A stretch of 64,000 bases of DNA from Thioalkalivibrio thiocyanodenitrificans ARhD 1 (GTDB lineage: Bacteria > Pseudomonadota > Gammaproteobacteria > Ectothiorhodospirales > Ectothiorhodospiraceae): the NCBI RefSeq assembly GCF_000378965.1, contig NZ_KB900536.1, positions 2,038,052-2,102,051 of the forward strand, in the 5' to 3' direction. The notes below the pieces were generated by a model. It was given only the letters and a program-made list of their open reading frames with translations, had not been told where the DNA came from and searched no databases. This document shows positions 3,857 to 50,675 of this stretch, in pieces. Numbering within the stretch: position 1 is the stretch's first letter; the number at the start of each line of letters is the position of its first letter. The position numbers and the translations under genes are program-made.

Positions 3857-3889
3857 AAAACGGCGGCGCGAAAGCGCCGCCGTTTTCTT
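3857..3889 (+). terminator. Rho-independent terminator of fccAB
   Basis: A perfect nine-base-pair stem CGGCGGCGC / GCGCCGCCG (3861-3869 and 3874-3882) encloses a GAAA tetraloop and is followed by TTTTCTT. An A-run precedes it, so it could also act on the convergent DUF465 gene, although that gene ends 65 bases away. Confidence 0.9.
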
Positions 3890-4431: not shown

Positions 4432-4905
4432 ATGACAGCCAACCACAACCAAGCCAGTTGCATCAGCGAAGCCCTTGAACGGGCCGACCAGCTCTGCGCC
4501 GAACGCTCGGTGCGCCTCACACCCCTGCGGCGGCGTGTACTGGAGCAGATCTGGCAGAGTCACGAGGCGATCAAGGCCTACGACCTCATCGGAAGGCTGA
4601 GTTCCGCGGATCATACGGTCAAGCCGCCCACCGTATACCGGGCCCTGGACTTTCTGCTCGAGCAGGGCCTGATCCATCGCATCGAAAGCCTCAATGGCTT
4701 CGTGGGTTGCGACCGCCCCCACAAGGTACACGAGTCCCACCTGCTCATCTGCCGCCGCTGCGGCCGGGTGAGCGAATGCGGTGACGACGGCGTGAAACGC
4801 GCCCTGAACCGCGAGGCGGAACGCCAGGGGTTTCTTGCCGAAGAACACATCGTCGAGATCCGCGGCCTGTGTTCCCGCTGCCGGAGCACGCACGCACCGG
4901 TCTGA
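4432..4905 (+). CDS. zur: Fur-family zinc uptake regulator Zur
   Basis: A 157-residue Fur-superfamily metalloregulator. The winged helix is seen in LTPLRRRVLEQIW and KPPTVYRALDFLLEQGLIHRIESL (about residues 29-85). The dimerisation/metal region contains HKVHESHLLICRRCG and a C-terminal CSRC pair that would hold structural zinc. The ESLNGFVGC segment after the winged helix and the HxxHESH pattern are more like Zur than Fur. It would repress zinc uptake genes when zinc is plentiful. The next gene starts within the stop codon (TGATG at 4903-4907), so the two are translationally coupled. Confidence 0.85.
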   Translation: MTANHNQASCISEALERADQLCAERSVRLTPLRRRVLEQIWQSHEAIKAYDLIGRLSSADHTVKPPTVYRALDFLLEQGLIHRIESLNGFVGCDRPHKVHESHLLICRRCGRVSECGDDGVKRALNREAERQGFLAEEHIVEIRGLCSRCRSTHAPV

Positions 4906-5672
4906 TGCCCACCGAATCGGTGTCCTTCGAGAACCGCCGGGGACAACGGCTGGCGGGCCGCCTGGAACGGCCCCCGGGACCGGTACGCGCCTGGGCCATT
5001 TACGCACATTGTTTCACCTGCTCCAAGGACAGCCTCGCTGCGGTACACATCAGCCGCGCACTGTCGGCACGGGGGTGGGGTGTGCTCCGTTTCGACTTCA
5101 CGGGCGTGGGAGACAGTGAGGGGAAATTCGAGGAGAGTCACTTCAGCGCAAATGTCTCCGACATCGTCAGTGCCGCGCACTGGCTGGATGAACGGAACCG
5201 CGCGCCCGCGCTGCTGATCGGTCACAGCCTGGGCGGAGCGGCGGCCCTGGCGGCGGCCGGCGACATCCCGTCGGTGCGTGCCGCGGTGACCATCGCCGCG
5301 CCCAGCGTACCCGCCCACGTGCGGCACGCCTTTTCGCAGCACCTCGACCGCATCCGCGACCATGGCGCGGCGGAGGTGGAGATCGGCCGCACCGGCACCT
5401 ACCGGATCACGCGGGAGTTCCTGAACGACATGGAAGCCGCGACCCTGGATGACAGGGTGCGCACGCTACGCTGTGCGCTCCTGATCATGCACGCGCCGGA
5501 GGATACCGTGGTGGAGGCGGACCATGCTTCGAATCTCTTTCGCATCGCCCCTCATTCCAAGAGCTTCGTGTCCCTGGATGGCATGGATCATCTGATCACG
5601 GACGCCGCCGATGCGCGGTACGTGGCGAACGTGATCGACGCGTGGTCTTCGAGGTATGTAGGAGGACACTAG
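4905..5672 (+). CDS. Alpha/beta hydrolase coupled to zur
   Basis: A 255-residue alpha/beta hydrolase with the nucleophile elbow GHSLGG, an acid residue in HAPEDTVV and a C-terminal histidine in GMDHLI. It resembles the hydrolase half of the two-domain hydrolase/OsmC proteins (AHCFTCSKD, FDFTGVGDSEG), but the OsmC part is absent here. The ATG overlaps the zur stop by one base; starting further upstream would run inside zur. The substrate is unknown. The last codons and the stop TAG (5670-5672) lie inside the left arm of a 37-base inverted repeat, so the C-terminal VGGH is encoded by repeat DNA. Confidence 0.8.
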   Translation: MPTESVSFENRRGQRLAGRLERPPGPVRAWAIYAHCFTCSKDSLAAVHISRALSARGWGVLRFDFTGVGDSEGKFEESHFSANVSDIVSAAHWLDERNRAPALLIGHSLGGAAALAAAGDIPSVRAAVTIAAPSVPAHVRHAFSQHLDRIRDHGAAEVEIGRTGTYRITREFLNDMEAATLDDRVRTLRCALLIMHAPEDTVVEADHASNLFRIAPHSKSFVSLDGMDHLITDAADARYVANVIDAWSSRYVGGH

Positions 5673-5748
5673 AGACAAGATACAAGAGGCAAGAAAATCG
5701 GTCTTCTTGTATCTTGCCTCTTGTATCTTGTCTCTAGTGCCCTCCTAC
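5658..5748. repeat. 37-base inverted repeat spanning two convergent stop codons
   Basis: Left arm 5658-5694 and right arm 5712-5748 are complementary at 36 of 37 positions. Each arm begins GTAGGAGG and contains CACTAGAGACAAGATACAAG. The left arm contains the hydrolase stop at 5670-5672; the right arm contains the fpr stop at 5747-5745. The same AGACAAG/TACAAGAGG words recur near 44196-44254 and, in weaker form, at 46183-46215. The 17-base loop has no U-run, so ordinary termination is not obvious. Confidence 0.92.
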
Positions 5749-6485
5749 CAATAATGCTCCGTCGTGATATGCCCCGGGGAGCGGCGGCGGTTCTTTCGCA
5801 GGCCCTTCGCCTTGAGCACCTCCGTGGCGTCGCGCACCATGTCCGGGTTGCCGCACAGCATCACCTGCGCGGCATCGTGGCTCAGCGGGAGATCCACGCG
5901 GCGCTCCAGCGCGCCGCTTTCCATGGCGGCGGGCACCCGCCCCGTCAGGGCCTGCGGATGCGCCTCCCGACTGACGAACGGCACAAAACTGAACTGCGCC
6001 CCGTGTTCGCGGAATCCCTCGATCACGTCCCCATAGGTCAGTTCCTCCGCGGTGCGCACCGCGTGAACCAGCACCACCCGCTCAAAGCGCTTCCAGGGCG
6101 TCTCGGTGCGCAGCATGGAGAGATACGGACCAATCGCCGTGCCCGTCGCGATCAGCCACAGCACATCGGCATCCGGCAGCTCCGAGAGGGTAAAGAATCC
6201 CTGCGGCCTGGACATGAGCTGGACGGTGTCGCCCGGCTCCAGGGCGGCCAGCCGGTTGCTCAGGGGGCCGTCGGGTACCGTGTTGAAGTAGAAGTCCAGC
6301 GGTGTCTGCGAGGGCGGATTGACGTAGGAGTACGGCCGGCCCACCCGTTCTCCGTCGATGTCCAGCGCCAGGCGATTGAACTGGCCGGGCTCGAAGGGAT
6401 CCACCGGCGCGTCCACCCGCAGGGAGTGGAGCCGTTCGGTCCAGCGCTTGCGTTCCACCACCTCACCCTGCAGCCAACCTGCCAT
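5745..6485 (-). CDS. fpr: Ferredoxin/flavodoxin-NADP reductase
   Basis: A 246-residue two-domain flavoenzyme that moves electrons between NADPH and ferredoxin or flavodoxin. The FAD domain shows RPYSYVNPP (about residues 50-58). The NADP domain shows GTAIGPYLSML and LCGNPDMV. The C-terminus HITTEHYW ends in the aromatic residue typical of bacterial subclass I reductases. Length is normal. It is convergent with the zur-hydrolase unit and its stop codon lies within the right arm of the 5658-5748 inverted repeat. Confidence 0.88.
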   Translation of the reverse strand: MAGWLQGEVVERKRWTERLHSLRVDAPVDPFEPGQFNRLALDIDGERVGRPYSYVNPPSQTPLDFYFNTVPDGPLSNRLAALEPGDTVQLMSRPQGFFTLSELPDADVLWLIATGTAIGPYLSMLRTETPWKRFERVVLVHAVRTAEELTYGDVIEGFREHGAQFSFVPFVSREAHPQALTGRVPAAMESGALERRVDLPLSHDAAQVMLCGNPDMVRDATEVLKAKGLRKNRRRSPGHITTEHYW

Positions 6486-7003: not shown

Positions 7004-7072
7004 TGTCAGTTGTCAGTTGTCAGTTGTCAGTTGTCAGTTGTCAGTTGTCAGTTGTCAGTTGTCAGTTGTCAG
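7004..7072. repeat. Heptamer tandem array (TGTCAGT)9 plus TGTCAG
   Basis: Nine exact copies of TGTCAGT (7004-7066) are followed by a partial copy. The array lies between the divergent starts of the DksA-like gene and the thioredoxin-fold gene, about 30 bases upstream of the latter's -10 element. A two-copy remnant of the same word is at 11988-12002. The exactness suggests recent expansion or active copy-number change. Confidence 0.97.
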
Positions 7073-7732: not shown

Positions 7733-7795
7733 GAAGTGTGAATTGGGAATTGGGAAGTGAAAGGCCTTTACTTCGCATTTCCCAATTCACACTTC
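7733..7795. repeat. Inverted short-period repeat between convergent genes
   Basis: GAAGTGTGAATTGGGAA (7733-7749) and its exact complement (7779-7795) form a 17-base-pair stem; extra TTGGGAAGTG and CACTTCGCA words lie inside and outside. It fills the whole spacer between a stop at 7727 and a stop at 7801. The words match the family at 36-164. Confidence 0.92.
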
Positions 7796-19672: not shown

Positions 19673-20898
19673 TGCAACCGCCAGGCGATGCCCCGGACGA
19701 CAGGCAGGCGCTCATGAGCGCATCCTCGCGGCGTCGTCCGCCCATCCCCATGTCGGTGTTCCGCAAGATGGTGAATTCGCTGTCACCGGAAGAACTGTCC
19801 CGGCTGCCGCCGGAGAAGCTGCCCGACAATATCCCGCCCGACATCATCGAACACGCCCCCCTGTATTCAAGAAATGCCGTGGAAGGCCTGATCCTGGCCG
19901 CCAATGCGCATCATCTTCAGCAGCGCATCCGCATTCAGGAGGATCACGGCGAAGAGGTGCTCAGCGCGCTGGACCGGGCCAAACGCACCGGCGACAGGGC
20001 CAACGTGAAGATCTTCCGCCAGAAACTGGAAGACATCGAGAAGCTCCTTGCTCAATGGCGCACCGACGGCCAGCCCGACTCGCTGACGGTGCTCACCAAC
20101 AAGGTGAGAACCCTGAACGGCCTCCTGATGGACGTACGCACCGAGGCGGCGGAGACCGCAGAATCAGCACGGCTGCTGCGCGAGGAGAACGCCTCGGATG
20201 AACTCATGGATGCCTTTATCGAGGCCAACGCACGACTCCATGGGCACGCTGAGGACATCGAGCATCTGCTGGCCCGATACTATATGGTGCGCATCGCCGT
20301 CACCCAGCACGAAATGCAGACCAAGGCCCGCCAGGTCGGCATGCTCGATCAGGAGGCGCGCATCCTGGCGGAACAGATCGAGGGTCTGCGTCAGGAACTG
20401 GAGCAGTCACAGGCCATCTGGCGGCGTGCCGTGAGCCGGGGCAAATCCAACCAGGAGGGAGAGCAACTCCAGCAGCGCATCTCCGAGCTGGTGGCCGAGC
20501 AACGCGCCCGGGAGGTGGCCATCTCGGAAAGCGATCTGACCTTGTGGCTGGACGCCATCGTGGATGCTAGCCTCCACCCGTTCACCCGCAACAAGGTCCC
20601 GAAGAACATCAGCGAAGCGCGCATGGCGCTCTACACCCTGCTCAACCGCTACTGCCAGCAGCAGGAGCAGTCCGCCATGCAGATTGCGCGCAACCCCTTC
20701 CTGCAGGTGGACCCGGCCCAGGCCATTCGCTTCATGCTCATGTCCGAAGAATTCATCCTCAACTACTTCGCCCACAAGCGCAATCAGACCACCGCGTGGA
20801 TCAGCGACGTCGCACAGGTGAAGAAGGAAGACCTCGACAGCCTGGAACGTGACATCCTCGTCGAGCTGAAACGCTCCAGCAGGTTCCGGCGGAAATGA
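19672..20898 (+). CDS. Coiled-coil protein of unknown function coupled to nadA
   Basis: A 408-residue soluble protein I do not recognise. It opens with a proline- and basic-rich segment (RRRPPIPMSVFRKMVNSL), then a region with SPEELSRLPPEKLPDNIPPDII. Long charged heptad-like helices follow (about residues 80-300). The C-terminal part (NPFLQVDPAQAIRFMLMSEEFILNYFAHKRN) looks globular and helical. No signal peptide, membrane helix or catalytic motif is visible. The GTG start overlaps the nadA stop by one base; an ATG at 19714 is an alternative. It ends next to an inverted repeat. A structural or scaffold role is possible, but I have no family to cite. Confidence 0.72.
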   Translation: MQPPGDAPDDRQALMSASSRRRPPIPMSVFRKMVNSLSPEELSRLPPEKLPDNIPPDIIEHAPLYSRNAVEGLILAANAHHLQQRIRIQEDHGEEVLSALDRAKRTGDRANVKIFRQKLEDIEKLLAQWRTDGQPDSLTVLTNKVRTLNGLLMDVRTEAAETAESARLLREENASDELMDAFIEANARLHGHAEDIEHLLARYYMVRIAVTQHEMQTKARQVGMLDQEARILAEQIEGLRQELEQSQAIWRRAVSRGKSNQEGEQLQQRISELVAEQRAREVAISESDLTLWLDAIVDASLHPFTRNKVPKNISEARMALYTLLNRYCQQQEQSAMQIARNPFLQVDPAQAIRFMLMSEEFILNYFAHKRNQTTAWISDVAQVKKEDLDSLERDILVELKRSSRFRRK

Positions 20899-20900
20899 GG

Positions 20901-21010
20901 AGAATTCGGGATTCAAGATTCAAGATTCAAAGGTAAGGGCGGCGGCGATGTTCAGCATCGCAAAAGATCCGCGTCCTTGAATCTTGAATCTTGAATCTTG
21001 AATTCTCCTT
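20901..21010. repeat. Inverted heptamer repeat (ATTCAAG) between convergent genes
   Basis: The left arm 20899-20933 carries AGGAGAATTC then tandem ATTCAAG words. The right arm (20975-21010) carries the complementary TTGAATC words and ends in GAATTCTCCTT. About 35 bases can pair with few mismatches. The arms reach from just after the stop at 20898 to the first base of the opposite stop codon at 21010. Confidence 0.93.
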
Positions 21011-23593: not shown

Positions 23594-23693
23594 GAAGGTT
23601 GAAGGTTGAAGGTTGAAGGATGAATGGTCCCCCGGAGCGGGGGGATGGGCTCTTATTCCACCTTCATCCTTCATCCTTCATCCTTCATCCTTC
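23594..23693. repeat. Inverted heptamer repeat (GAAGGTT / CCTTCAT)
   Basis: Three copies of GAAGGTT plus GAAGGAT (23594-23621) face four copies of CCTTCAT plus CCTTC (23661-23693). The two arms are complementary apart from a T/A position that differs between arms. A small CCCCC/GGGGG hairpin lies in the loop (23628-23643). The element starts nine bases after the typA stop and precedes the response-regulator gene on the same strand. Confidence 0.92.
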
Positions 23694-33880: not shown

Positions 33881-34019
33881 GCAGTGGCAAGTGGCCTTGA
33901 AGGCAGTGGCAAGTGGCAAGTCTCAAGGGAATTCGTCTTCTCCCCAGGCTCTCCCCAGGGGCGCAGCCCTTGGGGTTTCCTTGCCACTTGCCACTTGAGA
34001 CTTGCCACTGCCTTCAAGG
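33881..34019. repeat. Inverted AGTGGCAAG/TCTCAAG repeat between slpA and ispH
   Basis: The left arm (33895-33928) reads CCTTGAAGGCAGTGGCAAG then GTGGCAAGTCTCAAGG. The right arm (33979-34019) carries the complement, TTGCCACTTGCCACTTGAG then ACTTGCCACTGCCTTCAAGG. The right arm contains the slpA stop codon (34016-34014). A second hairpin of CCCCAGG/TTGGGG lies in the loop. The words recur at 40673-40718 and 41942-42055. Confidence 0.92.
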
Positions 34020-38935: not shown

Positions 38936-39062
38936 GCCACAGAGGACACAGAGGGCACAGAGAAAAAAGCAAGAGATGTCCGTTGGCTTGATGCGGCCAC
39001 TGCCCCTGTACCACCGGGGTCATTCTCCAGACCTTCTCTGTGGCCTCTGTGACCTCTGTGGC
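38936..39062. repeat. Inverted CCACAGAGGACACAGAG repeat between murJ and ribF
   Basis: The left arm (38936-38963) is GCCACAGAGGACACAGAGG plus GCACAGAGA. The right arm (39034-39062) is TTCTCTGTGGCCTCTGTG plus ACCTCTGTGGC. They can pair over about 28 bases with few mismatches. The 310-base spacer otherwise holds no gene. The same word occurs in the cbbQ-cbbO spacer at 50556-50675. Confidence 0.9.
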
Positions 39063-41877: not shown

Positions 41878-41878
41878 G

Positions 41879-41943
41879 CCCTTTTCTGCAGGCAACAAAA
41901 AAGCCCGGTCAAGCCGGGCTTTTTTGTTGCCTGCAGAAAAGGG
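41879..41943. terminator. 30-bp perfect inverted-repeat terminator of rpsT
   Basis: Arms 41879-41908 and 41914-41943 are perfectly complementary over 30 bases with a TCAAG loop. The core is GCCCGG/CCGGGC flanked by A6 and T6, so it should terminate in both directions. It begins two bases after the rpsT stop. Confidence 0.95.
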
Positions 41944-42052
41944 CAGTAGCGAGTGGCAAGGGAAAACACCCTACTTTCCGGCCCTCCCCCGCTTGCGGGG
42001 GAGGGCCGGAAAGGAAGTCCTCGCCACTTGAGACTTGAGACTTGCCACTGCC

Positions 42053-50555: not shown

Positions 50556-50675
50556 GCCACAGAGGACACAGAGGACACAGAGCCACAAGATCACCTCATG
50601 CCGTCCGCCGACGTCACGTTTTATCGAGGCCCCGATCTTCTTAGCAGTCTCAGTGACCTCTGTGTCCTCTGTGGC
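50556..50675. repeat. Inverted CCACAGAGGACACAGAG repeat between cbbQ and cbbO
   Basis: GCCACAGAGGACACAGAGGA plus CACAGAG (50556-50582) faces CCTCTGTGTCCTCTGTGGC (50657-50675). At least 19 bases pair perfectly. It is the same word family as at 38936-39062. Confidence 0.92.

Follow-up and report, generated by a model that had tools for sequence, protein, structure and literature searches.

The repeat between two convergent genes

The inverted repeat described here lies in a 64,000-nucleotide stretch of DNA from Thioalkalivibrio thiocyanodenitrificans ARhD 1 (hereafter referred to as the window), at the point where an alpha/beta hydrolase gene and a gene for an fpr-like ferredoxin/flavodoxin-NADP reductase converge (Table 1). 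Its arms, each 37 nt in length, form 36 of 37 pairs (97% complementarity) and enclose a loop of 17 nt. Both stop codons are located inside the arms, the TAG of the hydrolase gene (5670-5672) in the left arm and that of fpr (5745-5747, minus strand) in the right arm, and the two genes use different TAGs of the mirrored sequence GTAGGAGGrCACTAG. The geometry, the position of the two stops and the coding of the final hydrolase residues by repeat DNA, all put forward in a preliminary description of this DNA, are thereby confirmed. The arms are composed of tandem 7-mers (TCTTGTA TCTTGCC TCTTGTA TCTTGTC TCTAGTG), and the inverted-repeat score of the junction is 33, while shuffled gaps always scored below 14 in a survey of 182 gaps of this genome.

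Table 1. Genes, parts of the focal repeat and further heptad hairpins in the window.
Feature	Position	Strand	Remarks
alpha/beta hydrolase gene (Hydrolase_4)	4869..5672	+	actual start may be ATG at 4905; conserved up to ..AWSSRY, arm-coded tail variable
fpr-like ferredoxin/flavodoxin-NADP reductase	5745..6485	-	C-terminus TTEHYW conserved
left arm	5658..5694	+	GTAGGAGGACACTAG, then heptads AGACAAG ATACAAG AGGCAAG; codes hydrolase end VGGH and TAG stop
loop	5695..5711		17 nt; same orientation in the nearest relative G001
right arm	5712..5748	-	TCTTGCC TCTTGTA TCTTGTC TCTAGTG, then CCCTCCTAC; contains fpr stop
heptad hairpin, TGGGAAT words	7733..7795		next convergent gap; AGTGGCA/AGTCTCA words in both arms there in G002 and G004
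heptad hairpin, CTTGAAT words	20898..21009		stop to stop; loop inverted in G001 and between G003/G004
heptad hairpin, GAAGGTT/CCTTCAT words	23594..23693		after stop codon; loop inverted in G001
heptad hairpin, AGTGGCA words	33895..34019		extends into stop codon; loop inverted in G001

As RNA, the region 5640-5765 folds with a predicted energy of -69.8 kcal/mol, compared to -29.9 kcal/mol (sd 3.5) for shuffled sequences (z = -11.5), and none of 200 shuffles folded as well. Such a very stable stem between convergent stop codons invites the interpretation that the hairpin serves as a bidirectional intrinsic terminator. We regard this as improbable: no T-tract follows either arm, no terminator was called at the hairpin, and a stem of 37 bp is far longer than usual. 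Lacking a T-tract, the focal stem is consequently not a canonical intrinsic terminator. A search of the window against Rfam at the gathering score returned a tRNA as its sole match, and the focal repeat was assigned to no RNA family.

A class of heptad repeats at gene ends

The TCTTGTA/TCTTGCC/TCTTGTC family recurs at some 25 other places in this genome of 3.75 Mb, and the window contains other heptad vocabularies as well (TGTCAGT, CTTGAAT, GAAGGTT, AGTGGCA/AGTCTCA and TGGGAAT), several of them as inverted pairs. Across 264 kb of the genome, we found 19 intergenic arrays with a period of 7 and 18 with a period of 14; in the range of 4 to 15, period 9 was the sole other one to yield intergenic arrays (six). 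Arrays of period 7/14 are hence the dominant intergenic repeat. Our survey of gaps covered stretches of the genome (264 kb with 182 gaps) and relied on gene calls from a simple hexamer scorer, so that individual gaps may be misjudged; within this scope, heptad inverted pairs occur in 9 of the 41 gaps between convergent genes, in 9 of the 106 between tandem genes and in none of the 35 between divergent genes (Fisher p = 0.003 for convergent versus divergent). In relatives, heptad hairpins are present in some divergent gaps (L064:2193, L124:2211).

In short convergent gaps, the heptad arms usually reach from stop codon to stop codon, and stop or final codons lie inside the arms also at 20898 and at three places outside the window (L132:6680, L132:11892, L134:12417). 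The layout of the focal junction is therefore typical rather than unique. Bases of the gene end are mirrored into the far arm at other junctions, too. The focal repeat, a hairpin of heptads where two convergent genes meet, belongs to a genus-wide class. The proposal of the preliminary description that a single element had copied itself across the junction gives way to this dispersed class with its many vocabularies. A reading of the focal repeat as a miniature inverted-repeat transposable element (MITE) was likewise dropped, as the repeat is devoid of conserved terminal ends and its arms differ between species.

Several further repeats were observed along the way. Ten perfect direct copies of TGTCAGT are situated at 7004-7072, in the divergent gap between a DksA/TraR-like and a thioredoxin-like gene, an arrangement that contrasts with the inverted heptad pairs found where genes end. 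A second period in the same style is represented by 9-bp repeats (CACAGAGGA), which form inverted pairs at gene ends at 38936-39062 and 50556-50675. Finally, two contigs of the focal assembly (G000:C3:11325 versus G000:C1:2082237, at about 44186 of the window) are identical over at least 3069 bases, which reflects either a redundant contig or a real duplication.

The focal junction in related genomes

Nine relatives possess the same gene pair: three from the same genus carry a heptad hairpin at the junction, five from another genus of the family carry REP-like palindromes, and one is without a repeat. The nearest relative, the metagenome-assembled Thioalkalivibrio sp. CSSed162cmA_318 (G001), has the same heptads as the focal genome, while the other two of the three heptad hairpins in the genus are built of different words that are found in both arms (GGTACAAGATACAAGGGAA in G002 and AGTGGCAAGTCTCAAGTGGCAAGG in G003). 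In the other genus, REP-like GTAGGAG palindromes occupy this position in five of the six genomes; the sixth, L021, has conserved coding ends, no repeat and different final hydrolase residues.

The end of Fpr is conserved among these relatives as (T/L)TE-x-YW. After ..AWSSRY, the hydrolase continues with VGGH, VGER, IKQVLG or LSG, depending on the relative, and the C-terminus past ..AWSxRY varies also in relatives beyond the genus, including Massilia. As the hydrolase tail is variable between relatives, the codons that have been mirrored are dispensable ones.

The right arm of G001 is interrupted by an element of 176 bp that has inverted ends and a duplicated CTAG target. With this element set aside, the arms of G001 form 33 of 37 pairs, compared with 36 of 37 in the focal genome. 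Six pair columns differ between the two genomes; one of them shows a two-sided change (A-T to G-C), and in the other five a single arm is altered. Arm identity between species concerns few pairs and is not by itself proof of concerted change. The focal loop is not inverted relative to G001 (forward score 14, reverse score 6, of 17). The preliminary description had named a repeat-free orthologous junction with the same coding ends, and arms that diverge independently, as evidence against its own reading, and each was found in part: L021 is free of the repeat and other relatives have unrelated repeats, yet the hydrolase tails differ; most, but not all, of the changed columns are one-sided.

Elements resembling the one in the arm of G001, about 180 bp long, ending in CCCGCATAT..ATATGCGGG and duplicating a CTAG target, were observed in that arm (L010/L059), in G004 (L124:4744-4929) and in at least 28 places in G003, and the focal genome has a few full or partial copies. 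Judged by its sequence, this element looks like a MITE.

In G003 and G004 (L012 and L013), the coding end of fpr is present in inverse orientation just past its stop codon (TCACCACCGAGCACTA-TTGG-TAGTGCTCGGTGGTGA), with perfect arms of 16 bp and a loop of 4 nt. This inverse copy is likely to be the scar of a template switch.

The GTAGGAG motif shared with the other genus raises the question whether the outer part of the focal repeat, GTAGGAGG, is what remains of a former GTAG-tagged REP pair, with the heptads having grown inside it. REP-like GTAGGAGGCCAGCCC pairs do occupy the same junction in that genus, GTAG-tagged REP elements are known in Thioalkalivibrio (PMC3733652), and REP-like pairs exist in the focal genome (L134, L137); both kinds of repeat are intergenic palindromes that start with GTAG. 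However, GTAG-tagged REPs have a conserved, GC-rich family sequence, while the focal arms share GTAGGAG alone and lack the GC-rich REP palindrome. Moreover, this 7-mer is not enriched in the genome (20 occurrences seen, 31 expected by base composition), and it is missing from the focal junction in G002 and G003. We consequently rate a REP ancestry as highly doubtful.

Loop inversion between sister species

Between sister species, the loop is present as its reverse complement in 9 of 15 scorable heptad hairpins, versus none of the 55 gaps that lack an inverted repeat and served as controls (p = 8e-8). Inverted repeats not composed of heptads had an inverted loop in one of 11 cases (p = 0.014); this lone case is a 9-mer hairpin, in which an asymmetric mismatch has turned together with the loop. 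Three of the inverted loops belong to the window and differ in orientation from G001: those at 20898-21009 (forward score 8, reverse 46, of 46), 23594-23693 (forward 7, reverse 32, of 38) and 33895-34019 (forward 14, reverse 59, of 85). Of the remaining cases, two lie beyond the window and distinguish the focal genome from G001, and four distinguish G004 from G003. Among the six hairpins called as having the same orientation is L118:7789, whose ortholog is not a heptad hairpin.

The flanks of the inverted loops are about 94-98% identical between the sister genomes, and the flanking genes keep their orientation. Exact arm runs at the inverted sites measure 11-31 nt and are shorter than sequencing reads, which makes an assembly error unlikely; G004 is a single contig.

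Two classical-looking bidirectional terminators were also noticed in the window, at 3857-3886 and 41878-41944. In G001, the former has its 4-nt loop turned round (gaaa/tttc); the latter forms a palindrome of 31 bp, both arms of which differ jointly from their counterpart in G003.

These observations bear on the possibility that the paired arms are protein-binding sites, for instance of a global regulator or nucleoid protein, with loops turned either by a specialised invertase or by ordinary arm-to-arm recombination. The inversions are real on the sequence evidence, and arrays of heptads or octads on opposite strands have been read as sites of a global regulator in Geobacter metallireducens (PMC2700814). 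In that organism, 7- or 8-mers are likewise paired on opposite strands, but they follow a fixed consensus; in our class, the words change between junctions and between species at one junction, which ill suits a single protein or invertase. That the 4-nt loop of a terminator is inverted as well also speaks against such a scheme. Exact runs of 11-31 nt are short for RecA recombination. Taken as a whole, we deem this explanation quite improbable, although recombination between the arms is by itself a possible alternative to template switching.

Proposed origin and function of the hairpins

Template switching at inverted repeats is known to yield two products, homogenised arms and an inverted spacer (PMC8604942, PMC8794818), and the loop inversions and arm homogenisation of the class match this signature of replication template switching. 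We therefore think it likely that the heptad hairpin arose by slippage and template switching and that its RNA stem serves both 3' ends. According to this model, a short tandem array of 7-bp units beside a stop codon would expand and contract by slippage. A template switch during replication would then copy one arm, as its reverse complement, onto the other side of a short gap. Because the arms run from stop to stop, we infer that such copying would proceed outward and halt at coding sequence that selection maintains, which would place the stops and some expendable final codons inside the arms. Further switches from one arm to the other would subsequently make the arms alike and invert the loop. 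Since loops are inverted and words are replaced in both arms between species, this last step is supported for the class; at the focal site, the case for it is weak. The focal arms would have arisen by the same process as the rest of the class, with slippage as the presumed source of the heptads.

This also delimits the suggestion of the preliminary description that one gene end had been copied in inverse to the other. It gains from what looks like a recurrent process in the class, in which loops turn and arms stay paired while their words change, from the mirroring of gene ends into the far arm elsewhere and from the inverted fpr end in G003 and G004. At the focal site itself, the single two-sided column among six and the unturned loop weigh against it.

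Transcripts entering from either side would fold into a very stable stem directly after the stop codon. Judging from its position and from the persistence of a hairpin at the junction, the stem would most likely shield the 3' ends of both mRNAs, or set where they lie, once transcription has terminated with the help of Rho or farther downstream. Gaps with heptad hairpins did not differ significantly from others in their lack of classical terminators (p = 0.54). A serious rival to a function of this kind is that the hairpins are neutral products of mutation, building up wherever they are not selected against; the quick turnover of words, the many occupied spacers and the absence of a common sequence fit such a view. 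We nevertheless consider it the less likely view, given that some hairpin is found at the focal junction in eight of the nine relatives, that the arms are flush with stops and that the surveyed divergent gaps of this genome are free of heptad pairs, an absence which purifying selection at promoters could explain as well.

Comparison with known repeats

Inverted heptamer pairs are already known from Xanthomonas, whose genomes contain 70-75 inverted pairs of GGGAATC heptamers each, near or over stop codons; sister species carry them between the same genes, though with variable length and sequence (Rehm et al., 2015; PMC4692102). Common to both systems are intergenic 7-bp arrays, tandem units in both arms and scarcity between divergent genes. 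However, the Xanthomonas repeats use one G-rich word that has been discussed in terms of a quadruplex, and the focal words (TCTTGTA, TCTTGCC and TCTTGTC) are not of the GGGAATC type; here, we find many words, near-perfect palindromes that include gene ends, and inverted loops. The word 'inversion' does not occur in the main text of the Xanthomonas study, and our literature search, with its incomplete coverage, turned up no earlier account of inverted loops in heptad pairs of this kind. The loop inversions are the part worth following.

Beggiatoaceae, sulfur-oxidising gammaproteobacteria as well, possess intergenic heptamer arrays of TAACTGA (PMC4679880), but as direct arrays just upstream of start codons and not as inverted pairs at gene ends. 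Hairpins ascribed to template switching in yeast and in RNA genes share with our class the homogenisation of arms and the inversion of loops (PMC8604942, PMC8794818). Those cases have short arms and loops and concern coding or rRNA genes, whereas the hairpins reported here have loops of 16-85 nt and are located at bacterial gene ends.

Going beyond the origin of individual hairpins, we tentatively propose, as a possibility short of an even chance, that in this genus they form a self-renewing class of gene-end elements: slippage would supply the repeats, template switching would mirror the repeats together with the gene end and flip the loop so frequently that loop orientation is near random between sister species, and a selective advantage of an RNA stem behind the stop would retain the hairpin despite the turnover of its sequence. 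Point mutation hardly explains long, near-perfect hairpins. With loops inverted at about half of the sites that could be scored, each genome would hold many natural template-switch events, and the class would consequently allow a direct measure of template switching and of its share in the RNA structures at gene ends and in variable protein C-termini.
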